Made by a program: the position numbers and the translations under genes. Shown here in pieces: positions 2,661-60,440 of a stretch of DNA of 64,000 bases. The first letter of the stretch is position 1. Every line of letters starts with the position of its first letter. Source of the stretch: Quadrisphaera granulorum (lineage in GTDB: Bacteria > Actinomycetota > Actinomycetes > Actinomycetales > Quadrisphaeraceae). The notes beneath the pieces are model-generated. The model searched no databases. It saw nothing but the letters and a program-made list of their open reading frames with translations, and was not told the origin of the DNA. The stretch lies in assembly GCF_003149145.1 (NCBI RefSeq), contig NZ_QGDQ01000008.1, positions 1-64,000 of the forward strand, read 5' to 3'.

Positions 2661-2674
2661 TGGTGATCACGGGC
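2661..2674. repeat. degenerate TGATCA-family repeat copy
   Basis: CCATGGTGATCACGG, seven bases after the nagA stop, matches the CCATGATCACGG core of the dispersed family except for two extra bases. It is an isolated weak copy. Confidence 0.45.
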
Positions 2675-2701
2675 GCAACGTGCAGGCAGGCAGTGCGGCG
2701 C

Positions 2702-2740
2702 GAGGAGCGATCCGTCGGCTGAGGTTGGGCACCGCTCCTC
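2702..2740. terminator. possible bidirectional hairpin between nagA and the M56 gene
   Basis: GAGGAGCG (2702-2709) pairs with CGCTCCTC (2733-2740) around a 23-base loop, between two converging genes. The long loop and lack of a T-tract make this only a candidate terminator. Confidence 0.35.
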
Positions 2741-2751
2741 CGAGGACGCAA

Positions 2752-2821
2752 CTGACCTCGGTCACCTGCGGTGGCGTTCGTTCGGCACCGACCTGCCACA
2801 GCTGACCGCGGTCACTCGCGG
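2752..2821. repeat. two direct repeats containing TGACCNCGGTCA dyads
   Basis: CTGACCTCGGTCACCTGCGG (2752-2771) recurs 50 bases later as CTGACCGCGGTCACTCGCGG (2802-2821). Each holds a dyad, and the second is the perfect palindrome TGACCGCGGTCA. They lie in the convergent gap before a TGATCA repeat. No obvious promoter lies here, so a role as structural repeats is as likely as protein binding. Confidence 0.5.
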
Positions 2822-2846
2822 GGTGGCCGACTGCCCATGATCACGG
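2821..2846 (-). repeat. TGATCA-family dispersed repeat at the 3' end of the M56 gene
   Basis: GGTGGCCGACTGCC followed by CATGATCACGG is a full-length copy. Read on the minus strand it begins CCGTGATCATGGGC, and the TGA inside the core is the stop codon of the M56 protease gene. Confidence 0.8.
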
Positions 2847-3866
2847 AGGGGGGAGGGTGGCGAGCGCGTCGGCGAGCCAGGGGGCTATGAGTACCACCGG
2901 GGGCAGCACGAGCACACCGGCGGCCAGTGCGAGCACACCGGCGGACCGCCACCGCCTCGGCAGCGGCCGCCGCAGGCGGTCGAGGCGCTGAGCGCGCTGG
3001 GCGGCGACGGCGCGGTCGTCGGCGGTGCGCTCGGCCTCGGTGCCGGCGGCGGCCAGAGCTCCGACGCCCGGGTCGACCGCAGCGCCCAGCAGCTCCAGCG
3101 CTGAGCGCAGGGGGGCGTTGCCGCAGCGGCGGCGGGCGGCGTCGTCGGCAGCGGCCTCCAGCAGCAGCTCCACCGCGCCCAGCGCGCGCTCGTTGCGCAG
3201 CGGCCGGGGTACCGCCCGGTGGAACGCTGCGAACGACTCGAGCACCACGTCGTGCCGGGCGTCGAGGTGGGCCTGCTCGTGCGCGAGCACCGCCCGCAGC
3301 TGCGCCGTGTCGAGCAGCCGCAGCGCGCCGTCGCTGACCACGACGCGCGGGCTGCGGCCCGGCAGTCCGTACGCCAACGGCAGGGGGGCGCCGAGCACGC
3401 GTAGCTCGCTAGGGTCGGGGTGGGCGGCGCCCCGGGTGGGGCGGGCCGGCCGGGCGCGGTCGTCGTCGTCCTCGGAGGCGGCGGCGAGGTCACCCGCCAG
3501 CGCGGCGCTGCGTTCGGCGTCGTCGAGGAGGTCGAGCAGCTCGCGGTGCCGCTCGCGCCGCGCAGCCGAGCGTCGCATCACTCCGACCAGGCTCGTCGCG
3601 AGTCGAGCCACGATGAGCAGCGCCACTGCCAGCGCGCCGACGAGTCCCCACGCCGTCGCGGTGGGGCCGGCGCGCAGCGCACCGCTGATCTCCTCGGGGG
3701 CGATGAGGACGACGGCGACCGCGCTGAGCACCGACGCCAGCACCACCGCCTGCCACAGTACGACCGACGCCGCAGGGGTGGCCAGCGTCCACCGGGAGCG
3801 CGCCAGCGGCGCCGGGACCGCGAGGGAGAGCACCAGGCCGAGCAGGCCCAGGGCGAACGCGGTCAT
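2841..3866 (-). CDS. M56 family membrane metallopeptidase (BlaR1/MecR1-like)
   Basis: A protein of 341 residues with N-terminal hydrophobic segments (~1-20, 32-55 and 70-90), a cytoplasmic-looking acidic linker (SEDDDDRARP ~131), the zinc-protease motif HEQAH at 196-200 within AVLAHEQAHLDARHD, and a final membrane segment near 300-330. Family knowledge: M56 proteases pair with BlaI/MecI-type repressors and inactivate them on a signal. No C-terminal penicillin-binding sensor is present, so the signal is unknown. The gene follows blaI on the same strand after about 95 bases, and the pair is divergent from cydABDC, suggesting control of that operon. The stop codon lies inside a dispersed repeat. 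Confidence 0.88.
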   Translation of the reverse strand: MTAFALGLLGLVLSLAVPAPLARSRWTLATPAASVVLWQAVVLASVLSAVAVVLIAPEEISGALRAGPTATAWGLVGALAVALLIVARLATSLVGVMRRSAARRERHRELLDLLDDAERSAALAGDLAAASEDDDDRARPARPTRGAAHPDPSELRVLGAPLPLAYGLPGRSPRVVVSDGALRLLDTAQLRAVLAHEQAHLDARHDVVLESFAAFHRAVPRPLRNERALGAVELLLEAAADDAARRRCGNAPLRSALELLGAAVDPGVGALAAAGTEAERTADDRAVAAQRAQRLDRLRRPLPRRWRSAGVLALAAGVLVLPPVVLIAPWLADALATLPPP

Positions 3867-3960
3867 GCCCCGAGCCTGCCAGGGACGCGGACGGGTGGCG
3901 GCCTCGCCCAGCGCGGGCTTCGCCCGCCGGTGGTGCCGCCGGTGGGGCCGCTGAGGGTTG

Positions 3961-4365
3961 TCAGCCGGCGGCGTCGAGGGCGGCGCGCAGCGCGGCGACG
4001 CCCTGCGGGCCGACCCTGCCGACGAAGTGCACCAGAGCGGCGTCGCGCGCGGAGGGGTCGGGGGCGGAGCCGAGGGCCTCGAGCATGAGGCCGGCGGTCA
4101 GTTCCTCGCGGGTCTGCACGGGGGAGTAGTGGTAGGCGCGGCCGTCGCGTTCTTGGCGCACGACGCCCTTCTTGGCGAGCCGGTCGAGCACCGTCATGAC
4201 GGTCGTGTAGGCGAGGTCGTCTCCGTCGGTGCGCAGCTGCTCGTGGACCTGACGCACGGTCAGCGGCTCGGTGGAGTCCCACAGGCGCGCCATGACGTCG
4301 CGCTCCAGCGCGCCGCCCACGGGGCCACCGACCTTGCCGGCTCCCGCCGTGCCTGCTGCTGCCAC
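3961..4365 (-). CDS. BlaI/MecI/CopY family transcriptional repressor
   Basis: 134 residues from GTG 4365 (an alternative GTG at 4320 would give 119). The winged helix reads ALERDVMARLWDS, then TVRQVHEQL and YTTVMTVLDRLAKKGVVRQ, with the YHYSPV wing, all diagnostic of BlaI/PenI repressors. The C-terminal helices would make the dimer. It lies just upstream of the M56 protease and divergent from cydA, with two dyads in the 84-base intergenic space. I infer that it represses both its own operon and cydABDC. A minus-strand frame stays open far into cydA, but that extension is a shadow. Confidence 0.9.
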   Translation of the reverse strand: MAAAGTAGAGKVGGPVGGALERDVMARLWDSTEPLTVRQVHEQLRTDGDDLAYTTVMTVLDRLAKKGVVRQERDGRAYHYSPVQTREELTAGLMLEALGSAPDPSARDAALVHFVGRVGPQGVAALRAALDAAG

Positions 4366-4394
4366 GTTGCCGATCGTAACCGCGACCTGTGAGC

Positions 4395-4414
4395 AGTACG
4401 ACACGCGACGTACT
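4395..4414. promoter_or_regulatory. upstream operator-like dyad between blaI and cydA
   Basis: AGTACG (4395-4400) and CGTACT (4409-4414) form an inverted repeat with an 8-base spacer. It lies 35 bases upstream of the cydA start and about 30 from the blaI start, so one bound dimer could affect both promoters. Inference from position and symmetry only. Confidence 0.5.
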
Positions 4415-4424
4415 ACAGATTCAA

Positions 4425-4443
4425 ATACTACGAGCCGTAGTAT
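4425..4443. promoter_or_regulatory. BlaI-type operator overlapping the cydA translation start region
   Basis: ATACTACG-AGC-CGTAGTAT is a perfect 8+3+8 dyad. TACTAC/GTAGTA half-sites fit the TAC-rich operators bound by BlaI/MecI-type repressors. It ends only 6 bases before the GTG start of cydA, in the most AT-rich patch of the neighbourhood, so repressor binding would block transcription of cydABDC. No Rex-type site (TTGTGA...TCACAA) is visible here. Confidence 0.7.
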
Positions 4444-4449
4444 TGAGGT

Positions 4450-6015
4450 GTGGACGTCGTGGACATCACCCGCCTCCAGTTCGCCGTCGTGACGATCTAC
4501 CACTACCTCTTCGTGCCGCTGTCGATCAGCCTGGCGAGCCTCACTGCCGGCCTGCAGACCACCTCGGTGCTCACCCGTGACCCCGAGCGTGCGCAGCGTC
4601 TGCGGCGCTCCACGATGCTCGTGGGCAAGCTGTTGCTCGTCACCTTCGCCGTCGGCGTGGTGACCGGCCTGGTGCAGGAGTTCCAGTTCGGCATGGGCTG
4701 GAGCGCCTTCGCGCGCTTCTACGGCGACGTCTTCGGCCCCACCCTCGCCATCGAGGGCATGCTCGCCTTCTTCCTCGAGGCGACCTTCCTCGGACTGTGG
4801 TTCTTCGGGTGGGACCGGCTGCCCCGTCTGGTGCACCTCGCGACCATCTGGATCGTCGCCGTCGGCACCCTCATCAGCGCCTACATCATCCTCGGCGCCA
4901 ACTCCTTCATGCAGCACCCGGTGGCCTACCAGCTCGACCCGACCACCGGCCGCGCGCACCTGTCGAGCTTCGCCGAGCTCATGACCAACCCCGTGCTCTT
5001 CGCGACCTTTCCGCACACCATCGCGGGCGCCGCGATGCTCGGTGGTGCGCTGCTGCTGTCCATTGGTTCCTGGCGCCGCTGGATCGGGCCCGCTCCGGCC
5101 GGCGCGGCCGGGTCTCCGGAGGCCCGCAATGCCGACCCCGACCAGCGCGCCTTCGCGGGCATCGCCCGCCTCGGCGCCTGGACCACCGTGGCCGGCGGAC
5201 TGGCCACCGCCCTCACCGGTGACGTGCTCGGCAAGGTCATGACGTCGGTGCAGCCCATGAAGATGGCCGCCGCCGAAGCGCTCTACACGACGACCACGGG
5301 CGCCCCGTTCAGCCTGCTCACCATCGGCAACCTCGACGGGTCCCGCCCGATCTTCAGCCTCGACATCCCGTACCTCCTGTCGTTCCTGGCCACCGGCGAG
5401 TTCGACTCCACCGTCAAGGGCATCGACGACCTGCAGGCCCAGTACTCCCAGCAGTTCGGCCCGGGCGACTACGCCCCCATGATCCCGCTGGCGTACTGGT
5501 CGTTCCGCGCGATGATCACCATCGGGTTGCTGTCCGCGCTCATCGCCGGCGTCTACCTCTGGCTCACCCGCAAGGGCCTCGACCCCCGCGAGCCGAAGGC
5601 GAGCGCCCTGCCTTTCATGAGCCAGCGCCTCTTCCCGCGCCCGCTCGTGCAGCTCTCCCTGCGCATGCTGCCCACGCTGCCGCTGCTGCCCGCCGCCGCC
5701 GGCACCGCCGGCTGGGTCTTCACCGAGACGGCTCGCCAGCCGTGGCTCGCGTTCGGCCTCACCCTCACCAAGGACGGCATCTCCCCGGGTCTCACCGCCG
5801 CCGAGGCATGGTTCAGCCTGGCCGCGTTCACCGCCGTCTACGGCGTGCTCGCCGTGGTCTGGCTGCGGCTGGTCAAGCACCTGGTGGCCCAGGACCTCGC
5901 CGACCCGCCCGCACGGCCCGCCGTTCCCCTTCCGCATGAGGACGACGACGGCGAGGGCGTCAACCCCGACCGTGATCATGGGCATTCGGCCCAGCCGGTC
6001 ATCCCCGCCTACTGA
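4450..6015 (+). CDS. cydA: cytochrome bd quinol oxidase subunit I
   Basis: An integral membrane protein of 521 residues that oxidises quinol and reduces O2 with high affinity. The haem b595 ligand His lies in IYHYLFVPL (His18); ATFPHTIAGA (~His188) matches the b558 ligand region, with the Met ligand in YWSFRAMI further on. The quinol-loop region includes QPMKMAAAEALYTT. Eight to nine hydrophobic segments are apparent. GTG 4450 gives the usual MDVVDI start. The last 15 residues (from about DRDHGHS) are translated from a TGATCA repeat copy read in a frame that avoids its stop. cydB follows after 32 bases. Confidence 0.97.
   Translation: MDVVDITRLQFAVVTIYHYLFVPLSISLASLTAGLQTTSVLTRDPERAQRLRRSTMLVGKLLLVTFAVGVVTGLVQEFQFGMGWSAFARFYGDVFGPTLAIEGMLAFFLEATFLGLWFFGWDRLPRLVHLATIWIVAVGTLISAYIILGANSFMQHPVAYQLDPTTGRAHLSSFAELMTNPVLFATFPHTIAGAAMLGGALLLSIGSWRRWIGPAPAGAAGSPEARNADPDQRAFAGIARLGAWTTVAGGLATALTGDVLGKVMTSVQPMKMAAAEALYTTTTGAPFSLLTIGNLDGSRPIFSLDIPYLLSFLATGEFDSTVKGIDDLQAQYSQQFGPGDYAPMIPLAYWSFRAMITIGLLSALIAGVYLWLTRKGLDPREPKASALPFMSQRLFPRPLVQLSLRMLPTLPLLPAAAGTAGWVFTETARQPWLAFGLTLTKDGISPGLTAAEAWFSLAAFTAVYGVLAVVWLRLVKHLVAQDLADPPARPAVPLPHEDDDGEGVNPDRDHGHSAQPVIPAY
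5971..5996 (+). repeat. TGATCA-family repeat copy inside the cydA coding sequence
   Basis: CGTGATCATGGGCATTCGGC is read in frame as RDHGHS at the extreme C terminus of CydA, followed by about 20 more bases to the stop. The copy has the same orientation (gene then CGTGATCATGG) as those at gene 3' ends. Confidence 0.8.
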
Positions 6016-6047
6016 CCGTCACCGCTTCCGGAACCCGGAGAGACCCT

Positions 6048-7121
6048 GTGGACCTCGTCACCGTCTGGTTCGCCATCGTCGTCCTGTGCTGGGTGCTGTT
6101 CTTCACCCTCGAGGGCTTCGACTTCGGCGTCGGCGTGCTCGCGCCCCTCGTGGGCCGCGACGAGCACGAACGCGGCGCCGCCCTGAAGACCATCGGCCCG
6201 TTCTGGGACGGCAACGAGGTGTGGCTGGTGGCCGCCATCGGCGTCACGTACGCCGCGTTCCCCGCCTGGTACGCCGCACTGCTGTCCGGCACCTACCTGC
6301 CGATGGTCGGGGTGCTGCTGCTCCTGGCGGGCCGCGGTGTCGCGCTGGAGTTCCGCGGCAAGCACTCCGACCCGCGCTGGCGGCGCCGCTGCGAGGTGGT
6401 GCTGGCGCTGTGCTCGGCCGGCATCGTGGCCCTGTGGGGTGCGCTGCTGTCGGTGTTCGTGCGCGGGCTCGCCCTGGGCGCCGACGGTGAGGTGGTCTCC
6501 CAGCCTGGCCTGGCCGCCGGACTGGGCCGCACCGTCGCGCCGCTCTTCACCGTAGAGGCGGCTTTCGGCGCCGTCGCCGCGCTCGTGCTCTCGGTGCTGC
6601 TGGGCGCGACGTTCCTCGCGCTGCGCACGACCGGCCCGGTGCGCCTGCGCGCCCACCGCGTGGCCGCCGGGGCGGCGGCCGGTGTCGTGGCGCTCGGGGC
6701 TGCCGTGGCGGTGGCCGGTCTCACCGGTGCGACCCTGGCCGGTGGAGCGATCGGCGCTTCGACCGGCGCGACGAGTACGGGTCTCGGGCTCCTCGTGGTC
6801 GGCGCGCTCGTCGCTGCGGCCGCCGTCGTCGTCGCCGTGGCCACCCGGCTGGGGCGCGAGGGCGCGGCGTTCGCCGTCGTGTCGCTGCTCGTGGCCGGCG
6901 TCGTCGTCGCCGTCCTCCTCGCCAACGGTGACGTCGTGCTGCCGAGCACTCTCGACCCTGCCGCCTCCCTGACCAGGGAGTCCGCCGCGGCGACGCCCGC
7001 CGCGCTGGGCCTCATCACGGCCTTCGGTGCGGTGGCCGTGCCGGGTGTGGTGGTCTACCAGGTGTGGTCGTACTGGGTCTTCCGCCGTCGCGTCGCCAGC
7101 GAGCGCATCGCCACCGCCTGA
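6048..7121 (+). CDS. cydB: cytochrome bd quinol oxidase subunit II
   Basis: A multi-spanning membrane protein of 357 residues and partner of CydA. The N-terminal segment has FTLEGFDFGVGVLAPL, with TIGPFWDGNEVWLVAAIGV (~45-63) and FPAWYAALLSG next; these are the conserved CydB segments. A GTG start at 6048 follows GGAGAG at good spacing. Usual family length is about 340-380. Its stop is 22 bases upstream of the repeat copy in which the cydDC frame begins, so all three cyd genes probably form one transcript. Confidence 0.96.
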   Translation: MDLVTVWFAIVVLCWVLFFTLEGFDFGVGVLAPLVGRDEHERGAALKTIGPFWDGNEVWLVAAIGVTYAAFPAWYAALLSGTYLPMVGVLLLLAGRGVALEFRGKHSDPRWRRRCEVVLALCSAGIVALWGALLSVFVRGLALGADGEVVSQPGLAAGLGRTVAPLFTVEAAFGAVAALVLSVLLGATFLALRTTGPVRLRAHRVAAGAAAGVVALGAAVAVAGLTGATLAGGAIGASTGATSTGLGLLVVGALVAAAAVVVAVATRLGREGAAFAVVSLLVAGVVVAVLLANGDVVLPSTLDPAASLTRESAAATPAALGLITAFGAVAVPGVVVYQVWSYWVFRRRVASERIATA

Positions 7122-7140
7122 TCTCCGCCGCTCCTGCCCG

Positions 7141-7166
7141 CCGTGATCATGGGCAGTAGGCCACCT
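7141..7166 (+). repeat. TGATCA-family repeat copy containing the cydDC start codon
   Basis: CCGTGATCATGGGCAGTAGG plus CCACCT matches the consensus. Both candidate starts of cydDC, GTG 7143 and ATG 7149, lie inside it, and no convincing Shine-Dalgarno sequence precedes them. Confidence 0.8.
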
Positions 7167-10100
7167 CGGAGCGGGCCCTCCAAGGGACCCGTCGACCCGC
7201 GGCTCCTGCGCCACGCGCGGGCGGCCCGCCGTCCGGTCGCCGGTCTCGTGGTGGTCGGCGCGGCCCAGGTGCTGGTGACGCTGCTGGTAGCGATCGCGGT
7301 GACCGGCGTCGTCGTCGCGCTCGTGCTGGGTGCGCGTGACGGCGCGTCGCCGTCACCGGCCGGGTACGGACTGCCGGTCTGGGCCGCTGGCGCGCGCGGG
7401 GTGGGGCTGTCCCTCGCGGTGCTCGCAGGCGCCTTCGCCGCCCGGGCGCTGCTCGCGCGCGCCGAGTCCGTGCTGGCCGCGCGCGCCGGGTCGCTGGCGG
7501 TCGAGGAACTCCGCACCAAGGTGCTCCAGGCCGCGCTGCAGCGGGGGCCGGCGTGGGTGGCTGCCCACGGGGCGGGGCGGGTGCGCGCGCTCGTGGCCGC
7601 GACCACCGGCCCCGGCGCCAGCTCCGGCGGCGCCGCGGCAGGGCTCGACGCGCTGCGCCCGTGGTTCTCCGGGTACCTGCCCTCGCTCGTGGTCGGCGTG
7701 CTCATGCCGCCCGTGGTGGTGCTGGTGCTGGTGGCGGTCGACTGGCGCTCGGCGCTCATCGTGCTGGTCACCCTGCCGCTGGTGCCGATCTTCGCCATCC
7801 TCATCGGCTGGGCCACGCAGCGCCGCGCCGCCGAGCGTGTCGAGGAGGGCGCGCGGCTGGCGGGGCACTTCCTCGACGTCGTGCGCGGCCTGGCGCTGCT
7901 GCGGGTGCACGGGCGGGCGCAGCGGCAGGTCGGCGAGGTGGCCGCCACCACCGAGCGCCACCGCGAGGCGACGCTGCGCGTGCTGCGGGTGGCGTTCCTG
8001 TCCTCCACGGCGCTCGACCTGGTCGGCACACTGTCGGTGGGCCTGGTCGCCGTGGAGACCGGTCTGCGGGTGGCCGACGGGTCGATGCCGCTGGCGCCCG
8101 CGCTGCTCGTGATCCTCTTGGCACCCGAGGCGTACCGGCCGCTGCGCGAGGTGGGGGCGCGCTTCCACGCGTCCGCCGACGCGGCTGCCGTGGTGGCCGA
8201 GGTCGACGCTGTCCTCACCGCTCCCCTCCCAAACTCCCACCGTGATCATGGGCATCCGACCACCTGCGTCACCGATGAGCCACCGTCGGTGAGCGGTTCC
8301 GGGCTGCGCGTCCGGCACGCCGGGCGCTCCGTCGACGCGCTCTCCCACGACCTGGTCGTCGTGCGCGGTGGCGAGCTCGTCGCGCTGCAGGGCCCCTCCG
8401 GTGCAGGCAAGACCACGCTGCTGCGGGTGCTCGCCGGCGTGCAGCCGCTCACCGCCGGGACCGTCGAGACGACGGGCCGCGTGCTCCTCCTCACCCAGGA
8501 CCCGCTGCTGCCCCACGCCCGCTCGATCCGTGACGCGCTCCTGCTCGACGAGGAGCTGGCAGAGACTCTCGACGACGACGACGGCGGCCGCGGTGATGAC
8601 GGCGTCAGCCGGGGCGCCGCGGCCGCCCCGGCTGACGCTGAGCTCCTGGCCGCCCTCGAGCTGGTCGGCCTGCGCGCCGAGGTCGAGGCGCTGCCCGCCG
8701 GGCTGGGCACCCCGATCGGCGAGCGCGCGGCCGGCCTGTCCACCGGCCAGCGCCAGCGCCTGGCGCTCGCGCGGGTGCTGCGCGCTGCGGGTCGGCGGCC
8801 CGTGGTGCTGCTCCTCGACGAGCCGACCGCGCACCTCGACGCCGCCTCCGAGGCGCGGGTGGTGGCTGCGCTGCGCGCTGCTGCCGATGCCGGGAGCGCG
8901 GTGCTCGTGGCGGCGCACCGGCCGGCGCTGCTGGCCGCCGTCGACCGGACGGTGTCGGTGACACCCCCCACCACCTCCCCGCCCGTGATCATGGACTTCT
9001 CAAACACTGCCTTGGGCACTGTTCCGGAAGTCCATGATCACGGGGAGTTGGTGCGTCACGCCCATGATCACGGACGGGAGGGTGGCTGGTGGGCGCGGTT
9101 CTTCCGCGCCGCGGGGCGCCGGCCCGGCACCGCTGTCGCGCTCGGCGCCGCCTCCTGGCTCGCCGGGGCCACGCTCACCGCGGCCGCCACCTGGCTGCTG
9201 GTCCGTGCCTCGGAGCTGCCCCCGGTGCTGACGCTGTCAGCCGCCGTCGTCACGGTCCGTGGCAGCGCCGTGGCCCGGCCGCTGCTGCGCTACCTGGAGC
9301 GGCTCGCGTCCCACGAGGTCGCGCTGCGCCGTCTCGCCGGGTGGCGTTCGGCGGTGCTCGCCGACCTCGTCCCGCGTGTCCCCGGCCCCGGGTTGCTGCG
9401 CCGCGGCGACCTCCTCACCCGGCTCGTCGGAGACGTCGACGCCCGCCTCGACGGGCTCCTGCGCGGGCGGCTCCCCGCGGCCGCGGCGTTGGCGGCCGTC
9501 GTCGTCGTCCTCGGGGTCTTGTCTCTGCTCGACCCGCTGGCGGCACTCGGCGCGGCTGTCGGTTTCGCTGTCGCGGTCGTCGCCGCGCCGGCCCTGGCCG
9601 CGCGCGCCGCGCGCCGCACCGACGCCGCGCTCGCCGTGGAGCGGTCAGCGCTCGCCGACGCCGCCGTGGAGACCGTCGACGCCGTCGACGAGCTCGCCGC
9701 CCGCGCCGTCACCGCCGGCACCGCCACCGCCCTGGCTGTTCCGCGTTCCCGCGGACGCGACCTGGCCGCCGCCGAGGTCCGTGCTGCGGGCTCGGCGGGC
9801 ACCGCCACCGCCCTCGCGCACCTCGGCACGGGCCTGGCGGTGGTCGGGGCGGCCCTCGGGGTGTGGGGCGCGGTCACCTCGGGCCGGCTGGGTGCGGAAG
9901 GCGCCGCCGTCGTCGTCCTCGTGGTCCTCGCGCTGGCCGAGCCCGTGCTCGGGCTCGTGGACGCCGCCGTCGCGCGCGAGCGCTCCCGGGAGGCCGTGCG
10001 GCGCCTGGCGAGCGTGGCCCAGCAGCCGCCGTCGGTGGACGAGTGGCCGGGGCGCAGCGCCGACGTGCCGGTGCGGGCGCCGCTGGAGGTCCGCGGGCTC

Positions 10101-10754
10101 GTGGCCGGGTGGGACCCGGACCGTCCGCCCGCGCTCGACGGGCTCGACCTGCACCTCGCGCCGGGGGAGCGGGTCGCGGTGCTCGGCCCGTCGGGGTCGG
10201 GCAAGTCGACGCTCGGTGCCGTGGTCGCGCGCCTGCTCGACCCCCGTGCCGGCACGGTGACTCTCGGCGGTGTGGAGGTCCGCGACCTCGACGCCGACGC
10301 CGTCCGCCGTCGCGTCGGGCTGGTCAGCGAGGCCACCGAGCACCTGTTCGCCACCACGCTGCGCGCCAACCTGGCGCTGGCCGCCCCGGATGCCGCCGAC
10401 GAGGAGCTGGTGGCGGTGCTGCGGCGGGTGCGCCTCGGCGACTGGTTCGCCCGGCTGCCCGATGGCCTGGACACCTGGCTCGGCGACGGCGGCTCCACCG
10501 TCAGCGGCGGCGAGCGGCGCCGGCTCGCGGCGGCCCGTGCGCTGCTGCCCCGGCCCGACGTCCTCGTGCTCGACGAGCCCACGGAGGGCCTCGACGAGCC
10601 CACCGCCCAGGCGCTCGTCGCTGACCTGCTCGGTGATGAGGACGACGACGGCGAGCGGCGGCCGAGCGTGCTGCTGCTGACGCATCGCCTCGAGGGCGTG
10701 GACCGCTGCGACGTGGTGCTCGACCTCGCCGGAGCACTGACCCCCCGAGCGTGA
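7149..10754 (+). CDS. cydDC: fused ABC exporter CydDC for cytochrome bd assembly
   Basis: About 1201 residues, two ABC half-exporters in one chain. The CydD half has a membrane domain (~20-330), Walker A GPSGAGKTT (~416), signature LSTGQRQRLALAR (~530) and Walker B VVLLLDEPTAHLD (~552). The CydC half has a membrane domain (~650-900), Walker A GPSGSGKST (~1013), signature VSGGERRRL (~1118) and LVLDEPTEGLD (~1139). Family role: export of thiols (glutathione/cysteine) needed for bd oxidase maturation. CydDC fusions occur in other actinomycetes. Unusually, its start codon, the joint between the halves and its stop codon all lie in TGATCA repeats; another copy sits before the first ATPase domain, and acidic tracts (DDDDGGRGDDG, GDEDDDGE) occur in both ATPase domains. 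Confidence 0.95.
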   Translation: MGSRPPRSGPSKGPVDPRLLRHARAARRPVAGLVVVGAAQVLVTLLVAIAVTGVVVALVLGARDGASPSPAGYGLPVWAAGARGVGLSLAVLAGAFAARALLARAESVLAARAGSLAVEELRTKVLQAALQRGPAWVAAHGAGRVRALVAATTGPGASSGGAAAGLDALRPWFSGYLPSLVVGVLMPPVVVLVLVAVDWRSALIVLVTLPLVPIFAILIGWATQRRAAERVEEGARLAGHFLDVVRGLALLRVHGRAQRQVGEVAATTERHREATLRVLRVAFLSSTALDLVGTLSVGLVAVETGLRVADGSMPLAPALLVILLAPEAYRPLREVGARFHASADAAAVVAEVDAVLTAPLPNSHRDHGHPTTCVTDEPPSVSGSGLRVRHAGRSVDALSHDLVVVRGGELVALQGPSGAGKTTLLRVLAGVQPLTAGTVETTGRVLLLTQDPLLPHARSIRDALLLDEELAETLDDDDGGRGDDGVSRGAAAAPADAELLAALELVGLRAEVEALPAGLGTPIGERAAGLSTGQRQRLALARVLRAAGRRPVVLLLDEPTAHLDAASEARVVAALRAAADAGSAVLVAAHRPALLAAVDRTVSVTPPTTSPPVIMDFSNTALGTVPEVHDHGELVRHAHDHGREGGWWARFFRAAGRRPGTAVALGAASWLAGATLTAAATWLLVRASELPPVLTLSAAVVTVRGSAVARPLLRYLERLASHEVALRRLAGWRSAVLADLVPRVPGPGLLRRGDLLTRLVGDVDARLDGLLRGRLPAAAALAAVVVVLGVLSLLDPLAALGAAVGFAVAVVAAPALAARAARRTDAALAVERSALADAAVETVDAVDELAARAVTAGTATALAVPRSRGRDLAAAEVRAAGSAGTATALAHLGTGLAVVGAALGVWGAVTSGRLGAEGAAVVVLVVLALAEPVLGLVDAAVARERSREAVRRLASVAQQPPSVDEWPGRSADVPVRAPLEVRGLVAGWDPDRPPALDGLDLHLAPGERVAVLGPSGSGKSTLGAVVARLLDPRAGTVTLGGVEVRDLDADAVRRRVGLVSEATEHLFATTLRANLALAAPDAADEELVAVLRRVRLGDWFARLPDGLDTWLGDGGSTVSGGERRRLAAARALLPRPDVLVLDEPTEGLDEPTAQALVADLLGDEDDDGERRPSVLLLTHRLEGVDRCDVVLDLAGALTPRA
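8241..8266 (+). repeat. TGATCA-family repeat copy inside cydDC (first half)
   Basis: CGTGATCATGGGCATCCGAC followed by CACCTG is translated as RDHGHPTT between the CydD membrane domain and its ATPase domain. Confidence 0.8.
8982..9044. repeat. perfect 18-bp inverted repeat at the CydD/CydC junction
   Basis: CCCGTGATCATGGACTTC (8982-8999) is exactly inverted at 9027-9044 (GAAGTCCATGATCACGGG) around a 27-base loop. It is in frame with cydDC and lies just after the CydD ATPase domain. The translated linker contains IMDFSN and VHDHGE. It is a head-to-head pair of TGATCA repeat units. Confidence 0.9.
9061..9078 (-). repeat. third TGATCA copy in the CydD/CydC linker
   Basis: CCCATGATCACGGACGGG, translated AHDHGR, lies 17 bases after the inverted repeat and immediately before the CydC membrane domain. 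Confidence 0.75.
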
Positions 10755-10832
10755 TCATGGACACTCGGCCACCGCCTGGTGGCCAAGTGCCCATGATCAC
10801 GGCGGGAAACTGCTCCGGAAGTCCATGATCCC
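10751..10832. repeat. TGATCA hairpin plus a third degenerate copy behind cydDC
   Basis: The arm 10751-10773 pairs with 10778-10800 (21 of 23 positions, 4-base loop), forming a stem with ends GTGATCATGG and CCATGATCAC. The cydDC stop TGA (10752-10754) lies in the left arm. A further copy with the core altered to CATGATCCCGG follows at about 10818-10832, preceded by CTGCTCCGGAAGTC as in the 9027 unit. The structure lies between converging genes and could terminate transcription from both sides. Confidence 0.8.
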
Positions 10833-10844
10833 GGACGGGGTGAG

Positions 10845-15837: not shown

Positions 15838-15844
15838 ACCTGAA

Positions 15845-41966: not shown

Positions 41967-42041
41967 GGTGGCATCGAACCACCTGCGGTGGCGGCCTTCC
42001 TCGGTGTGATGGTGGCGATGCGCATCAGCAGGTGTGCAGAA

Positions 42042-42125
42042 CGTCCATGATCACGCTGGATTGCGCTTCGGAAGTCCATGATCACGGCGGGAAAGGGTGG
42101 CGGACGCCCATGATCACGGACGGGG
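42042..42125 (-). repeat. cluster of three TGATCA-family copies at the tetR 3' end
   Basis: Cores at 42048-42053, 42079-42084 and 42111-42116. The first two are separated by TTGCGCTTCGGAAGTC as in the 9027 unit, the third is preceded by GGTGGCGGACGCC as in the 2821 unit. The stop codon of the TetR gene is the TGA inside the third core. Confidence 0.85.
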
Positions 42126-42749
42126 TGGGCGGCGGGTGAGGTCCAGGATGGCCTGGAGCACGCGGTCCTTGTCATCGACGAGGGGGGCGTCGCCGTAGAG
42201 CGGTGCCATGCAGATGCCGTCGGCCGCGGCGATCGCCAGTGTCGCCACCAGGGGGTCGAGGCCGTCGGTGAGTAGTCGCTCGCGCCACCGCTCCGCGTCG
42301 GCCTGCATCATCGCGGCTACGGCCGGGTCGGTCTGCAGGTGCACGAGCAGCGTGGTGGCGCGGCGCGTGCGCTCGGCGTCGGCCGCTGCCGCCAAGGTCG
42401 CCCGGACGTAGGCGCGCGTCAGCCGGCCGGGCGTGCGCGCCCCGCCGTCGTCGTCAGTCCCGTCGTCAGTCCCGTCGTCAGCCCCGTCATCAGAGCCGTC
42501 GATGCCGTCCTCGGCGGCCAGGGCCGCCTCGACGTCGCGGGTGAAGTCGTCCAGGAGCTGCTGCGCCACGGCATGCAGGAGCGCCTCTTTGCTGCCGAAG
42601 TGGTAGAGCAGCCCGCCCTTGGTCACCTGGGCGCGGGAGGCGATCTCCTCCAGGCCCGCGCTGCCGCCGCGCTCGGCGACCACCTCGGCGGCGGCGCGCA
42701 ACACCTGCTGCTGCGTCTGTCCGGAGGTCCTGCCGGTGGTGCGCCCCAT
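42114..42749 (-). CDS. TetR family transcriptional regulator
   Basis: 211 residues. N-terminal HTH: QVLRAAAEVVAERGGSAG, LEEIASRAQVTKGGLLYHFGSKEALL. The ligand domain follows, but an acidic Asp/Gly/Thr insert (about residues 82-103, containing DDGADDGTDDGTDDDGG) splits its first helices. The gene is divergent from a DHA2 efflux pump with a clear dyad between, the usual layout of a drug-responsive repressor and its pump. Confidence 0.9.
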   Translation of the reverse strand: MGRTTGRTSGQTQQQVLRAAAEVVAERGGSAGLEEIASRAQVTKGGLLYHFGSKEALLHAVAQQLLDDFTRDVEAALAAEDGIDGSDDGADDGTDDGTDDDGGARTPGRLTRAYVRATLAAAADAERTRRATTLLVHLQTDPAVAAMMQADAERWRERLLTDGLDPLVATLAIAAADGICMAPLYGDAPLVDDKDRVLQAILDLTRRPPRP

Positions 42750-47105: not shown

Positions 47106-47119
47106 CACCGACGTGACGA

Positions 47120-47168
47120 TCAAGGAAGTTCTGCACAGCTTCACGGTCTCCGTGCAGAACTTCCTTGA
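47120..47168. terminator. ACGATCAAGGA-family hairpin behind the GH32 gene
   Basis: TCAAGGAAGTTCTGCAC (47120-47136) is exactly inverted at 47152-47168 around a 15-base loop, 14 bases after the GH32 stop. The same core sequence forms the hairpin at 61476. Confidence 0.85.
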
Positions 47169-47191
47169 CCGCCGCGAAACCGGGGGGCCGG

Positions 47192-47217
47192 GCGTGATCA
47201 TGGACGCGCGGCCACCG
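47192..47217 (+). repeat. TGATCA-family repeat copy between GH32 and the monooxygenase fusion gene
   Basis: GCGTGATCATGGACGCGCGG followed by CCACC fits the consensus. It lies 12 bases from the 3' end of the convergent fusion gene. Confidence 0.75.
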
Positions 47218-47229
47218 GCCCCGAACCCG

Positions 47230-55128: not shown

Positions 55129-55194
55129 CGCCACAGCCCCCGGCCCGCGAGCCGGCAGAACAGGTCAGTCACCTCCGACGACGAAGGGAACACC

Positions 55195-56784
55195 ATGACC
55201 CTGCAGGACAACCCCGCTCCCCTCACCAGCGCGACCGGCGCGGACGAGGCGCCCACGCAGCGACCCATGACGGGGCAGGAGTACATCGACAGCCTCCGTG
55301 ACGACCGCGAGGTCTGGATCTACGGCGAGCGCGTCAAGGACGTCACCACCCATCCCGCCTTCCGCAACCCGGTGCGGATGACGGCCCGCCTCTACGACGC
55401 CGTCCACGCACCCGAGACCCACGACATGCTCACGGTGCCCACCGACACCGGCAACGGCGGCTACACACACCCGTTCTTCCGCAGCCCCCACAGCGTGGAC
55501 GACCTGCTGGCCGACCGCCGCGCCATCGAGGGCTGGGCCCGGATGTCCTACGGCTGGATGGGGCGCAGCCCGGACTACAAGGCGAGCTTCCTCGGCACCC
55601 TCGGCGCCAACAGCGGCTTCTACGCGCCCTTCGAGGACAACGCCAAGCGCTGGTACAAGGAGTCGCAGGAGAAGCTCCTCTACTGGAACCACGCCATCAT
55701 CAACCCCCCGGTCGACCGGAACATGAGCCCCGACGAGGTGGGCGACGTGTTCATGAAGGTCGAGAAGGAGACCGACGCGGGCCTGGTCGTCTCGGGCGCC
55801 AAGGTGGTGGCCACCGGCTCGGCGATCACCAACTACAACTTCATCGCCCACTACGGACTCCCCATCAAGAAGAAGGAGTTCGCGCTCATCTGCACGGTGC
55901 CCATGGACTCCCCGGGCATCAAGCTCATCTGCCGTCCCTCGTACACCCAGCAGGCCGCGGTGATGGGGAGCCCGTTCGACTACCCGCTCTCGAGCCGCAT
56001 GGACGAGAACGACACGATCTTCGTCTTCGACAAGGTGCTCGTGCCCTGGGAGAACGTCTTCCTCTACGGCGACGTCGAGAAGATCAATGGGTTCTTCCCG
56101 GTCTCCGGCTTCATCCCGCGGTTCACCTTCCACGGATGCATCCGCCTCGCCACGAAGATCGATTTCATCGCGGGGCTGCTGTTGAAGGCTCTGGAGATCA
56201 CCGGCAGCAGGGACTTCCGTGGCGTGCAGACGCGCGTCGGTGAGGTCATCGGTTGGCGCAACACCTTCTACGCCCTCGCCGACGCCATGGCCCGCAACCC
56301 CGACGAGTGGACCAACGGCGCGCTGCTGCCCAAGCTCGACTACGGGCTGACCTACCGCATGCTCATGATCCAGGCGTACCCGCGGATCAAGGAGATCATC
56401 GAGTCGGACGTGGCGAGCGGACTCATCTACCTCAACTCCCACTCCATCGACTTCAAGACCCCCGAGGTCAGGCCGTACCTCGACAAGTACGTCCGCGGCT
56501 CCAACGGCTACGACGCCGTGGACAGGGTCAAGGTGATGAAGGCCCTCTGGGACGCCGTCGGCACCGAGTTCGGTGGCCGCCACGAGCTGTACGAGCGCAA
56601 CTACTCGGGCAACCACGAGAACGTCAAGGCCGAGCTGCTCTTCGCCGCCAACGCCCAGGGCACCACCGCGCAGATGACGGGTCTGGCGGAGGCCTGCCTG
56701 GCCGAGTACGACCTCGACGGCTGGACCGTGCCCGACCTCATCGGCAACGACGACGTGTCGATCTTCAGCTGCCGCGGTCGCTGA
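55195..56784 (+). CDS. pheA1: FADH2-dependent phenol 2-monooxygenase oxygenase component (HpaB/PheA1 family)
   Basis: 529 residues of the 4-hydroxyphenylacetate 3-hydroxylase family: [23 protein letters not shown] at ~25 (quoted from [13 protein letters not shown]), [36 protein letters not shown] (flavin region) and a helical C-terminal domain with [19 protein letters not shown]. With catABC downstream the substrate is most likely phenol, giving catechol. Chlorophenol or resorcinol hydroxylases of the same family are alternatives, and the nearby maleylacetate reductase keeps them open. Uses FADH2 from the preceding gene. Confidence 0.9.
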
Positions 56785-56859
56785 CCGGCCAGCTCCCCTC
56801 ACAGCGGCACCGACCAGCGGCACCGCACCCCCTCACGCCACAGCACAGCAGGAGCAGAC

Positions 56860-57738
56860 ATGAGCACCCTTGACAGGACCGACGAGCTCGTCACCCCACT
56901 CACCGCGACCGCTGCCGCCTCCGGTGCGCAGGCCAGCGCCTCCTTCCGCACCAACGAGGTCTACAGCGGCGCCACCGCGGACGTCTCCACCGAGCGCGTC
57001 CACACCGTGGCCCGCGCGGTCCTCAAGGCGGTCCACGCCGTCATCGAGGAGCACGAGGTCTCCTACCCGGAGTTCCAGGCCGCCAAGAAGTGGCTCATGG
57101 ACGTGGGGGAGTTCGGCGAGTGGCCGCTGTTCCTCGACGTCTTCGTCGAGCACGCGGTGGAGGAAGTGGCCTCCAAGGCCCAGCACGGCACGAAGGGCAC
57201 CATCCTTGGTCCCTACTACCTGCCGGGCCAGGCCCAGCTGGCGAGCCCCGCCACGCTTCCCTCCCGCGCGGAGGAGGTGGGCACCCCGCTGCTGTTCACC
57301 GGCCGGGTGACCGACCTCGACGGCAACCCGCTCGCGGGGGCCACCCTGGACATCTGGCACGCCGACTCCGACGGGCTCTACTCCGGGTTCGCCCCGGGTA
57401 TCCCCGACGGCAACCTGCGCGGCGTCGTCTCCACCGACGCCGACGGGCGGTTCGAGATCCACACCATCGAGCCCGCGCCGTACCAGATCCCCACTGACGG
57501 ACCCACCGGCGCGCTCATCCGCGCGGCCGGCTGGAGCGCGTGGCGCCCGGCGCACCTGCACCTCCTCGTGGGTGCGCCCGGTCACCGCACGGTCACCACG
57601 CAGCTGTACTTCGCCGGGGGTGAGCACCTCGAGAACGACGTCGCCGAGGCCACCAAGCCGGAGCTCGTGCTCAACCCCGTCCAGACGCCGTCCGGCGAGC
57701 GCGTGGCGGAGTACGACTTCGTCCTCGAGCGCGCCTGA
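56860..57738 (+). CDS. catA: catechol 1,2-dioxygenase
   Basis: 292 residues, intradiol ring-cleaving Fe(III) enzyme. Iron ligands can be placed as Tyr174 (DGLYSGF), Tyr208 (APYQIP), His232 and His234 (RPAHLHL). The N-terminal dimerisation helices contain YPEFQAAKKWLMDVGEFGEW. It converts catechol to cis,cis-muconate. Hydroxyquinol dioxygenases are close relatives, but the adjacent catB and catC favour catechol. ATG 56860 follows AGCAGGAGCAGAC. A strong hairpin separates it from catB. Confidence 0.92.
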   Translation: MSTLDRTDELVTPLTATAAASGAQASASFRTNEVYSGATADVSTERVHTVARAVLKAVHAVIEEHEVSYPEFQAAKKWLMDVGEFGEWPLFLDVFVEHAVEEVASKAQHGTKGTILGPYYLPGQAQLASPATLPSRAEEVGTPLLFTGRVTDLDGNPLAGATLDIWHADSDGLYSGFAPGIPDGNLRGVVSTDADGRFEIHTIEPAPYQIPTDGPTGALIRAAGWSAWRPAHLHLLVGAPGHRTVTTQLYFAGGEHLENDVAEATKPELVLNPVQTPSGERVAEYDFVLERA

Positions 57739-57749
57739 CAGCTGCCCCG

Positions 57750-57778
57750 GGGCGGCCCACCCGACCGGTGGGCCGCCC
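57750..57778 (+). terminator. stem-loop between catA and catB
   Basis: GGGCGGCCCACC (57750-57761) and GGTGGGCCGCCC (57767-57778) pair perfectly around a 5-base loop, 12 bases after the catA stop. Since catB follows in the same direction, it may attenuate the transcript or stabilise the catA end rather than end the operon. Confidence 0.7.
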
Positions 57779-57825
57779 TGAGGCGCTCCGCACACCAGCA
57801 CCGAGAAGCACCGAGGAGCCACCCC

Positions 57826-58947
57826 GTGCACGACCTCACCATCGACAGGGTCCAGACCCGGCTGCTGGACGTCCCCCTCGTGCGGCCGCACCGGTTCGCC
57901 CGCACCGGCATGGCAGCGCAGCCGGTCATGCTGCTCACGCTCACCACCGCCGGCGGCGTCACCGGTACCGGCGAGGGCGTCGTCCCCGGTGGGCCCTGGT
58001 GGGGTGGTGAGTCCGTCGAGACGATGCAGGTGATCGTGGAGCGGTACCTCGTCCCCGTGCTCCTGGGGCGACGCGTCGACGACATCGCCGGCCTGCAGCG
58101 GGACATGGACGACGTCGTCGGTGGCAACCTCTTCGCCAAGACGGCCGTCGAGGTGGCCCTGCACGACGCCTGGGCCCGCTCCCTGGACGTGCCCGTGCAC
58201 ACCCTGCTGGGCGGTCTGGCGCGGACCTCCGTGCCGGTGACCTGGGCGCTGGGCACCGAGTCGGCGGGCGAGGTGGTCGACGAGGCCCAGGCCAAGCTGA
58301 GCAGCGGTGCCCACACGACCTTCAAGCTCAAGATGGGCGCTGCGGAGCCGGCTGCCGACGTCACCCGCATCGTCGAGGTGACCGAGAAGCTGCGCGACAG
58401 CGCCGGCGTGCGGGTCGACCTCAACGCGCGGTGGGACCTGGCGACGTCCCTGCGTTGGCTGCCGGCACTGGCCGACGCCGGTGTGGAACTGGTCGAGCAG
58501 CCGGTGCCCGCGGGCGAGGTCGACTGGCTCCGGCAGATCAGCGCGGCGCTGCGGGTGCCGGTCATGGCGGACGAGTCCCTGCGCACCCCCTCGGACGCCT
58601 ACCGGCTGGCCCGCGCCGACGCGGCCGGCGTCTTCAGCGTGAAGACCACCAAGTCCGGCGGTCTGCGCCGCAGCGCCGAGATCACGGCCATCGCTGCCGC
58701 GGCCGGCGTCCCCTGCCATGCCGGCACCTCGATCGAGAGCCCCGTGGGCACCGCGGCGTCCCTGCACCTGGCGTGCGCCGCACCGGGGATGACGTGGGGC
58801 AGCGAGCTGTTCGGGCCGCTGCTCATGACCGAGCAGCTGACCGTCGAGCCGCTGCGGTACGCCGACGGTCACCTGCACCTGCCGGAGGGTCCCGGGCTCG
58901 GGGTGGAGCTCGACCCCGACGTCGTCGAGCGCCTGACCCGCCGCTGA
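57826..58947 (+). CDS. catB: muconate cycloisomerase
   Basis: 373 residues, enolase superfamily. Catalytic Lys167 and Lys169 in TFKLKMG, metal ligands Asp198 (RVDLNARW), Glu224 (LVEQP) and Asp249 (VMADES), and Lys273 in SVKTTKSGG are all in place. It converts cis,cis-muconate to muconolactone. GTG 57826 follows GAGGAG. Its neighbours catA and catC fix the role. Confidence 0.94.
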   Translation: MHDLTIDRVQTRLLDVPLVRPHRFARTGMAAQPVMLLTLTTAGGVTGTGEGVVPGGPWWGGESVETMQVIVERYLVPVLLGRRVDDIAGLQRDMDDVVGGNLFAKTAVEVALHDAWARSLDVPVHTLLGGLARTSVPVTWALGTESAGEVVDEAQAKLSSGAHTTFKLKMGAAEPAADVTRIVEVTEKLRDSAGVRVDLNARWDLATSLRWLPALADAGVELVEQPVPAGEVDWLRQISAALRVPVMADESLRTPSDAYRLARADAAGVFSVKTTKSGGLRRSAEITAIAAAAGVPCHAGTSIESPVGTAASLHLACAAPGMTWGSELFGPLLMTEQLTVEPLRYADGHLHLPEGPGLGVELDPDVVERLTRR

Positions 58948-58988
58948 CCTGCCACCTGACTGTCAACGCCGACCGCCCGGAGGTTCCC

Positions 58989-59276
58989 GTGCTCTTCCAC
59001 GTGCGGATGGACGTCGCCATCCCCCACGACCTCGACCCCGCCCTGCGCGCCGACCTGCTCGCGCGGGAGAGGGCTCGTGCCCTGGAGCTGCAGCGTCAGG
59101 GCGTGTGGGTGCACCTGTGGCGCGTCGTCGGGCGCTACTCCAACATCTCGGTCTTCGAGGTGCCGGACGGCGGGGCCCTGCACGACCTGCTGTGGTCGCT
59201 GCCGCTGTTCCCCTACATGACCATCGAGGTGACGGCGTTGACCGCGCACCCCTCAGCCCTCGCGGAGAACCCGTGA
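58989..59276 (+). CDS. catC: muconolactone delta-isomerase
   Basis: 95 residues, the usual size. It begins LFHVRMDVAIPHDLDP and has ARERARALELQRQGVWVHLW, GRYSNISVFEVPD and SLPLFPYMTIEVTALTAHPS, the full CatC pattern. It isomerises muconolactone to 3-oxoadipate enol-lactone; no pcaD or later genes lie in the window. GTG 58989 follows GGAGG. Its stop overlaps the next GTG start. Confidence 0.95.
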   Translation: MLFHVRMDVAIPHDLDPALRADLLARERARALELQRQGVWVHLWRVVGRYSNISVFEVPDGGALHDLLWSLPLFPYMTIEVTALTAHPSALAENP

Positions 59277-60328
59277 GCGTGGCCGCGGAGCTCCCGCCGG
59301 CATCGCGGCCGCCGTCGTCGTCCTCGTCGTGGTCCTGGTGGGAGCAGGCCGGGCAGGCGTGGTGGGGTCTCGACGACGTCCCGGCGGGGGCCGGTCCGCG
59401 GGTGGCGGCGATGGGCGTCTTCGACGGTGTGCACCGGGGACACGCCGCCGTGGTCACCGAGGCCGCCCGTCTGGCGAGGAGCCGAGGGGTGCGCTCGGTG
59501 GCGGTGACGTTCCACCCCCACCCCGCGGTGGTGCTCGGCCGACGGCAGGAGCCGGCCGCGCTCGTCTCCGTGCGCCGGCGAGCCGAGCTGCTGCGGGCGG
59601 CGGGTGCTGACGACGTGCTCGTGCTGCCGTTCACCCAGGAGCTGGCCGCCGAGCCCGCGGAGTGCTTCGTCCAGCGTGTCCTGCGCAGGGGCCTCGGCTG
59701 TCGGGGCGTGGTGGTCGGTGCCGACTTCCGCTTCGGCGCGGGCGGCACGGGAGACCTCACCACCCTGCGGCGGACGCTGGGGCCGGGCGCCGCAGTGGTC
59801 GGGGTGCGCCCCGTCTTGCGGGATGCCGAGCGGTGCTCCTCCACGCTGGCGCGGCAGCTGGCGGCGCAGGGTCGGGTCGACGCCCTCACCGACCTGCTGG
59901 GCAGGCCCCACCGGGTGGAGGCCGTGCCGGTCGGTGTGCCCGACGCCCTGACAGGTGGTCACGCGGCCGGACCCGCCCGCGTCGTCGTGGAACCTCTCGA
60001 CGCCGGTGCGGCGCGGCTGGCGGAGGGCCCCTACCGCGCGCGGGTGCTGCCGCTGGGGTGCCCTGCGTTCGATGTCGGGCCAGTGCTCGACGGAGGGCGT
60101 GGGCTCGAGGTGGGGCGTGGGCTCCCTGTGGGGCCGGTGCTGGATGTCGAGGTCGTCCACGGCGCCGCCGGCATGAGGCTGCTGCTCGCCGGTGGTGCGT
60201 GGGCGTCGACCCAGTGTGGGTCGCTCGCCATCGACCTGCTGGCCCGTCTCGACGACGACGACGCGGGTGCGCGCCGAGGGCACGGAGCGCCTCGTGCCGT
60301 CGCGCACCGGCGCGTGGTTCACCCCTGA
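59273..60328 (+). CDS. RibF-like FAD synthetase, kinase domain degenerate
   Basis: 351 residues. The nucleotidyltransferase motif GVFDGVHRGHAAVV lies at ~48-61, with TFHPHPAVVLGRRQEPAALV and VVVGADFRFGAGGTGD (the adenylyltransferase region), then CSSTLARQLAAQGRVD. The C-terminal part lacks a recognisable riboflavin-kinase core (no GxPTAN) and is replaced by Gly/Val repeats (GPVLDGGRGLEVGRGLPVGP). The gene is coupled to catC by GTGA. FAD made here could feed the FADH2-dependent phenol hydroxylase. That functional link is inference from position. Confidence 0.8.
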   Translation: MSVAAELPPASRPPSSSSSWSWWEQAGQAWWGLDDVPAGAGPRVAAMGVFDGVHRGHAAVVTEAARLARSRGVRSVAVTFHPHPAVVLGRRQEPAALVSVRRRAELLRAAGADDVLVLPFTQELAAEPAECFVQRVLRRGLGCRGVVVGADFRFGAGGTGDLTTLRRTLGPGAAVVGVRPVLRDAERCSSTLARQLAAQGRVDALTDLLGRPHRVEAVPVGVPDALTGGHAAGPARVVVEPLDAGAARLAEGPYRARVLPLGCPAFDVGPVLDGGRGLEVGRGLPVGPVLDVEVVHGAAGMRLLLAGGAWASTQCGSLAIDLLARLDDDDAGARRGHGAPRAVAHRRVVHP

Positions 60329-60428
60329 CTTCGCCGCGCGTCACCCCGCGCGGGCGGAGCGGCTGCGTGCCCAACTGCGCCAGCAGCCCCCCCGTCACCG
60401 CGACCATGGACGCTGTGCACAGGGCCGG

Positions 60429-60440
60429 CCGTGATCATGG
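60429..60440 (+). repeat. single TGATCA-family core
   Basis: GCCGTGATCATGG, about 100 bases after the RibF-like gene and 88 before the next gene. The outer consensus is not conserved. Confidence 0.55.

Follow-up and report, generated by a model that had tools for sequence, protein, structure and literature searches.

Among described bacterial repeats, the closest to those considered here are the repetitive extragenic palindromic (REP) elements and the bacterial interspersed mosaic elements (BIMEs), which two reports describe as short palindromes present in more than 100 copies per genome and paired into mosaics of alternating orientation; compensatory changes occur in them, and a part in transcription termination has been suggested (PMC2817692, PMC3733652). 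For REPs that carry a CGTC tag no dedicated transposase is known and copies inside genes are reported, according to PMC3733652, the main text of which does not contain the word Actinobacteria. DNA uptake sequences (DUS) and uptake signal sequences (USS) show high conservation at sites that otherwise tolerate change, and inverted pairs of them stand at terminators (PMC2397512, PMC3630211); uptake signals inside genes show orientation and gene-end biases (PMC2346458), the density of DUS in Neisseria is roughly 1 per 1-1.5 kb (PMC2397512) and DUS dialects differ within one family (PMC3630211). Here we describe a family of short repeats, built on a core that contains TGATCA, in a stretch of 64,000 nucleotides from the actinobacterium Quadrisphaera granulorum (NCBI RefSeq assembly GCF_003149145.1, contig NZ_QGDQ01000008.1, positions 1 to 64,000; hereafter the window). 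The family is real, and our preferred reading, to which we assign a probability of about 0.5, is that its members are genus-wide, modular, REP-like repeats that would work at gene 3' ends independently of a REP-associated tyrosine transposase (RAYT). Among the matches listed in the open-access literature for the core sequence, for Quadrisphaera repeats and for actinobacterial or Geodermatophilaceae palindromic repeats, no description of the family was found.

The window is part of contig C8 of a genome of 4.88 Mb (G000) and has a GC content of 72.6%. The core is the 12-mer CCGTGATCATGG, while genome-wide counting used exact CGTGATCATGG. All 14 cores listed in the initial annotation are present at the places given, 11 of them as exact CCGTGATCATGG (12-mer starts and strands 2835-, 5970+, 7141+, 8240+, 8983+, 9032-, 9062-, 10791-, 42076-, 42108- and 60429+) and three with G replacing the first C (10749+, 42045- and 47192+); both degenerate cores are likewise found, at 10823-10834 (one mismatch) and 2658-2673, and the units are arranged as had been noted, as singles, head-to-head hairpins and clusters of three. 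With up to two mismatches the core matches 43 times against 5.98 expected, a tally in which every exact core scores once per strand, the core being nearly palindromic, and TGATCA occurs 25 times against 4.82 expected, about 10 of the 25 lying in other contexts without the core. None of 100 shuffles reached either count. The whole genome contains 346 exact copies of CGTGATCATGG, about 1 per 14 kb, where composition predicts about one by our own arithmetic, so that the family also passes the comparison of a genome scan with compositional expectation. A reversed-pattern control gave no match in G000 and is too lenient, because it contains CTAG, a tetranucleotide rare in such genomes. The hairpin form occurs 59 times in G000 and in none of the other 395 genomes of a phylum sample, and the probability that the family is a product of chance or base composition is, with these genome counts and shuffles, close to nil.

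Unit anatomy was derived from 462,845 bases of G000 (contig C3 and parts of C6 and C8), which contain 61 exact cores where composition predicts 0.1. This sample (463 kb below) amounts to about 9.5% of the genome and was drawn from site-rich contigs picked after the sites were known, a choice that affects density and should not affect orientation. A unit is about 29-31 bp long and consists of the core and, after it, about 13 nt of tail; the position profile around the 61 cores carries information from about -5 to +23, in the order CC-S-W-C, core, R-C and tail, and contains no GTAG consensus. Of the two outer types distinguished initially, both A (GGCCACC; tail GCAGTCGGCCACC) and B (TTCCGGAA; tail ACTTCCGGAACAG) recur, but the division into two is incomplete, with at least two further tail types, A' (GCGTCCGCCACC) and C (centred on GTGCACA, e.g. 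GAGTTGTGCACAC), and a few sites without a typical tail. The tail families are common to many loci in G000. Direct pairs within 100 bp are spaced by 30-32 bp in 15 of 19 cases (the others by 29, 34, 35 and 85 bp), and all nine direct pairs of congener G003 by 31-32 bp (counted by eye in 100 of its 146 sites, with three overlapping the 19-pair set). Head-to-head pairs are spaced by 39-46 bp in 36 of 49 cases, by 48-52 bp in six and by 72 bp in three; tail and loop lengths account for most of this spacing, and helical phasing of these pairs is not claimed. An inverted pair forms a hairpin whose stem measures about 20 bp or more and encloses the core, with a mean predicted RNA energy of -41 kcal/mol (first 60 of 64 pairs).

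The units are concentrated at the 3' ends of genes, as the initial annotation had proposed. With gene calls from a home-made GC-frame caller, 31 of the 37 clusters in the 463 kb are intergenic compared with 15.6% of random positions, and 15 clusters lie in convergent and 2 in divergent gaps, which hold 2.4% and 4.0% of random positions, respectively. In G000 and stretches of four congeners, 69 gene ends have a core no more than 200 bp away (a hairpin between convergent genes being counted for both genes), and the first core is co-oriented with the gene in 52 cases and opposite in 17. The co-oriented first cores are located at -5 to +20 relative to the stop codon in 41 of the 52 cases: the unit supplies the stop codon itself in 10, and 31 more begin 1-20 bp past it. 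In the window, the M48 peptidase, cydDC and TetR-type genes take their stop codons from cores. Since hairpins make co-orientation trivial, one-direction clusters in tandem gaps provide the cleaner test, and here all 12 share the direction of the gene upstream (partners counted up to one mismatch). Outside the genus, first-listed sites were placed by eye in genomes (not sites) picked by their inverted-pair pattern; gaps that are convergent or tandem contain about 10 distinct clusters, most of them within 30 bp of a stop codon or overlapping it, two lie in divergent gaps and eight lie in or overlap genes, most of these being plain coding matches without a tail. Orientation counts at loci chosen by the inverted-pair pattern are biased and were left unused.

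The arms of the hairpins covary. Over 12 tail positions in 64 distinct Quadrisphaera hairpins, identity between arms is 0.849 within a hairpin compared with 0.537 between loci, and the highest value in 1000 shuffles is 0.622; for the 24 of 36 hairpins from other lineages that were long enough, the values are 0.618 and 0.412 with a highest shuffle of 0.503. For 33 genes compared with their orthologues, where found, in up to five relatives, in regions chosen for their richness in G000 and with pairs that are not independent, a relative has a core (at most one mismatch) at 22 of 60 3' ends where G000 has one and at 0 of 37 where G000 has none. The best core matches at the 60 ends comprise 21 exact, one with one mismatch and four with two mismatches (0.8 expected), the remainder falling near the shuffled distribution, whereas tail identity at shared orthologous 3' ends is 0.546 (43 comparisons), like that of unrelated loci. 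Within the 463 kb the 61 exact cores compare with 25 one-mismatch sites, 4.2 of which are expected by chance, and by our own arithmetic divergence is about 3% per core site as against about 46% per tail site. At the 3' end of a gene that we take from its sequence to be of ribH type, G003 and G005 have similar flanks around different hairpins, each of which is self-complementary. At a given 3' end, therefore, the core is nearly always either retained whole or missing, and species differ in the tail.

Exact cores number 128-221 in five congeners inferred to be Quadrisphaera, which together with G000 form the genus set, compared with 346 in G000, 3-23 in seven same-family genomes of other genera and 1-37 in 26 genomes sampled from other families of the order. 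The genus is deduced from congener G003, whose site coordinates coincide with those of Quadrisphaera sp. INWT6 throughout the overlap of the two listings. The inverted-pair form is present in 1 of 396 phylum-sample genomes, G000 itself, and in 5 of 393 class-sample genomes (57 in G000, 16 and 15 in two genomes of one genus, and two singletons). Among the matches listed, which cover at least 76 stretches, it occurs, besides Quadrisphaera and a genome labelled 'Streptomyces sp. NP160', in named genomes of Geodermatophilus, Blastococcus, Klenkia and Modestobacter and in metagenome-assembled genomes (MAGs) labelled Frankiaceae, Frankiales, Geodermatophilaceae, Streptosporangiaceae and Actinomycetales, together with one Saccharothrix match that may be a coincidence. 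Core counts in 17 such named genomes range from 8 to 159, and the three highest (128, 146 and 159) equal congener counts. The NP160 genome (NZ_VDMJ01) has the forward and reverse core counts of congener G002, and its label looks wrong. In other lineages the same core is followed by their own tails: CGTTCGCAGC in Frankiaceae-labelled MAGs, where direct spacing is again 30-31 bp, GGGTTGTTGCC in Geodermatophilaceae and GATCCCGCCACC in G027. The expectation that the family would be absent from distant genera stands only in part, because Geodermatophilaceae and Frankiaceae-labelled genomes also carry the core, followed by other tails. G027, from another family of the same order, carries direct core arrays with tails like GATCCCGCCACC at a spacing of 29-45 bp, and no inverted exact core was seen in the stretches of it that were read. 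Two possible origins were set aside, that of a phage, with the inverted-pair pattern in 0 viral contigs, and that of a known RNA family, with nothing in the window matching Rfam at gathering scores. On the 1.1-Mb contig C1 of G003 (1,109 kb), 19 of 54 cores lie in the 71 kb from 827293 to 898624, which include the cyd operon; the cyd region is core-rich both there and in the window, and regional density may therefore be conserved.

A core that is nearly perfect or absent is also what a DNA-uptake-type signal, such as Neisseria DUS or Pasteurellaceae USS, would produce, with preferential uptake keeping the core perfect while the flanks diverge and with inverted pairs doubling as terminators. 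For core conservation and permissive placement this is the strongest rival: the units sit in permissive linkers, known signals are conserved in permissive places with inverted pairs at terminators (PMC2397512 and PMC3630211), and such signals show orientation and gene-end biases inside genes (PMC2346458). We nevertheless judge it unlikely. There is about 1 core per 14 kb compared with roughly 1 per 1-1.5 kb in Neisseria (PMC2397512), neither the tail families common to many loci nor the 31-bp spacing of direct units would be explained, density is uneven (19 of 54 sites on G003 C1 in 71 of 1,109 kb), and the 11-mer is unchanged across several families whereas DUS dialects differ within one family (PMC3630211). 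Uneven regional density would equally suit sites bound as duplex DNA by a nucleoid organiser or a transcription road-block, for which 31 bp would represent three helical turns that place neighbours on one face. A core far more conserved than the tail, together with direct spacing mostly of 30-32 bp across differing spacers (30-31 bp in Frankiaceae-labelled loci), fits such binding; however, covarying hairpin arms are not needed for it and the orientation of units with genes points to a role that is exerted in RNA or depends on transcription, making this explanation quite improbable.

The initial annotation had suggested looking for a RAYT-like transposase, and this was not borne out: the Y1_Tnp domain (PF01797), the one transposase family searched for, is found in 0 of 6 genus genomes. 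The model matched 2 of the 39 genomes searched, both outside the genus, and 5 of 14 control genomes. RAYT-driven REPs were rejected on this result, and RAYT appears to be excluded within the reach of the Y1 domain model. A composite transposon with '++ ... --' ends was likewise discarded. The segments inspected between such ends hold ordinary genes, non-coding DNA or one IS110, the genes (assigned by eye, with no family search) being epimerase-like, MetE-like and one for a small membrane protein, along with a restriction-endonuclease-like protein whose Pfam match is below cut-off; the pattern itself arises because the units point with the two flanking genes. The IS110-family transposase gene (G000 C6 91949-93220) lies between two direct units and two inverted ones, and IS110 as the mover was rejected, the repeats flanking this single copy not being symmetric.

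The same observations bear on whether the units are selfish, non-autonomous repeats of REP type or of the miniature inverted-repeat transposable element (MITE) type, moved in trans, with the core as transposase site, the tail as passenger, 3' ends as merely permissive places and no host function. Tail families common to many loci, cores that are nearly all-or-none at orthologous 3' ends, in-frame copies in linkers and tails, and a copy number that varies from 128 to 346 within the genus are all as such repeats would leave them, and the CGTC-tagged REPs, too, appear to be without a transposase of their own (PMC3733652). Set against this are the lack of a Y1 transposase in 6 of 6 genomes and the content of the segments inspected between facing units, which are ordinary genes, non-coding DNA or one IS110. 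Mere insertion tolerance would not lead one to expect the 12-to-0 co-orientation, and species often share the position of a unit though not its tail (22 of 60 versus 0 of 37). We consider a purely selfish family somewhat unlikely.

Units also lie in frame within coding sequence, in the CydA tail, the CydD linker and the CydD-CydC linker (5970, 8240 and 8983-9073) and between the two domains of RibBA. The G001 copy in RibBA shows decay at three third-codon positions but still encodes the peptide RDHG, and two sister-genus genomes have a RibBA linker about 30 bp shorter, as read from the alignment. A clean insertion at the CydD linker was considered and rejected, the length comparison with the sister genus not having shown one, and the in-frame copies may represent replacement instead of insertion. 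The core at the end of cydA is found in G000 only among the six genus genomes aligned, whereas those at the cydB/cydD junction (G005 with one mismatch) and in the CydD linker (G001 with one mismatch; tails vary) are found in all six. The sister-genus CydD-CydC linker contains repeated peptides of its own, e.g. SSGHFVDTSPS twice in G009, so that this linker seems to collect different repeats in each genus.

A core kept or lost as a whole, tails that differ and arms that match together favour a 3'-end module with a recognised core, since intermediates would be expected of a mobile repeat that simply decays and a plain hairpin needs no fixed core. On this proposal the hairpins would be transcribed as mRNA 3' ends and would serve as bidirectional terminators or as barriers to 3' exonucleases that lack a U tract; the core would be conserved through recognition by a sequence-specific factor or by an agent that copies the units, and the units would turn over as blocks and be copied without RAYT. 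The function of a unit, judged from sequence, is probably that of a T-tract-less terminator or an mRNA 3' barrier with a recognised core. Several observations weigh against this proposal. In the 12 nt after 40 hairpin ends the T fraction is 0.13 and no T run is seen; hence the hairpins are not canonical intrinsic terminators, and termination, if any, would be of a T-less kind. Single and direct units form no long hairpin, so that the hairpin alone cannot be the function, and a minority of genes carry a unit. Inside genes, one-direction or single clusters are co-oriented in five cases and opposite in three (n=8), and the gene calls are home-made. A relative lacks the core at 38 of the 60 ends where G000 has one, and cydB/cydD-junction tails are nearly alike in G001, G003 and G004, contrary to free tail change. 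Clean insertion is poorly supported by the linkers, the longer RibBA linker being present also in the core-less congeners G003 and G005 and the unit-bearing CydD linker being not clearly longer than in the sister genus.

More tentatively, GTGATCATGG might be a sequence-specific 3'-end signal in several families of Actinomycetota, read by a factor and carried with swappable tails and partners as portable cassettes, with no known transposase; we see this as possible though doubtful. More generally, the repeats would represent a REP-like family of high-GC actinobacteria that does without the transposase to which REPs are ascribed and has a core common to several families and lineage-specific tails. 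Such a family would offer a natural experiment on which part of a palindromic repeat gets recognised, and would bear on how 3' ends are built where hairpins lack T tracts and on how short repeats enter protein linkers in frame.

The units of the window are listed in Table 1. The exact core at 60429 has no typical tail and lies 31 bp after the decayed unit at 60398.

Table 1. Units of the TGATCA-core family in the window, with coordinates, strand and gene context.
Feature	Coordinates	Strand	Context
Degenerate core (CCATGGTGATCACGGG)	2658..2673	.	3' of amidohydrolase-like gene 1793-2653
Unit, type A tail	2822..2846	-	TGA 2843-2841 (-) is stop codon of M48 peptidase gene 2841-3866 (-)
Unit, type A-like	5970..5994	+	In frame near CydA C-terminus, peptide RDHGH
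Unit, type A	7141..7165	+	cydB/cydD junction; candidate start codons GTG 7143 and ATG 7148 inside
Unit, type A-like	8240..8264	+	In frame, CydD linker between membrane and ATP-binding cassette (ABC) domains, RDHGH
Head-to-head pair, type B tails	8983..9043	.	In frame, CydD-CydC linker
Third unit of CydD-CydC linker cluster	9049..9073	-	30 bp from neighbour, in frame
Head-to-head pair, type A tails	10749..10802	.	TGA 10752-10754 is cydDC stop codon
Degenerate type B unit, core with one mismatch	10810..10834	-	Adjoins 10749..10802 hairpin
First unit of direct array of three	42032..42056	-	Array spacings 31 and 32 bp
Second unit of direct array, type B tail	42063..42087	-	
Third unit of direct array, type A' tail	42095..42119	-	TGA 42116-42114 (-) is stop of TetR-type gene 42114-42749
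Single unit, type A	47192..47216	+	Convergent gap 47106-47229
Decayed type C unit (60398, core with 2 mismatches) and exact core (60429)	60398..60440	+	3' of FAD-synthetase-type gene

Other repeats were seen alongside. A second palindromic family, CACTTTCCGCGG...AAGTGCG, has 13 copies of its 12-mer in the 463 kb against 0.1 expected and many matches in G001 and G002, and two copies extend the RibBA C-terminus in frame (G000 C3 25610-25730). The palindrome TGACCGCGGTCA, or near forms of it, stands at gene ends of the genus (window position ~2800 and the orthologous regions of G004 and G005), in some cases at an end that bears a TGATCA hairpin in a relative; the exact 12-mer occurs once in the 463 kb. 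A single intergenic region (L018:1560-2010) holds several other long palindromes without the TGATCA core.

Compared with known systems, the hairpins resemble U-tract-less actinobacterial terminators in being GC-rich, in following soon after the stop codon and in lacking a T run. They differ in that the family has a fixed core of 11-12 nt, whereas ordinary terminators are not known to share any sequence, and in that single units form no long hairpin. With DUS and USS the family has in common a 10-12-mer conserved in permissive places and inverted pairs at terminators; it differs from DUS in being roughly ten times rarer (346 in 4.88 Mb) and regionally uneven, in having tail families, a direct spacing mostly of 31 bp and the same core in several families, and in the 12-to-0 orientation of its one-direction intergenic clusters. 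The in-frame copies in CydA, CydD, CydD-CydC and RibBA recall the CGTC-tagged REPs, including RPE-4 and RPE-6 of Rickettsia, from which the core differs, CGTC directly preceding it in just 6 of 61 units by eye. Relative to the REP/RAYT system, no Y1 transposase is present in the six genus genomes, a conserved near-palindromic core of 12 nt within the stem takes the place of an unpaired GTAG tag, the units are oriented with genes, and the core is common to families while the tails differ. Although not demonstrably a member of the REP/RAYT class, the family appears to work as REPs do, being palindromic, high in copy number (346), mostly extragenic (31 of 37 clusters) and paired (59 head-to-head hairpins).

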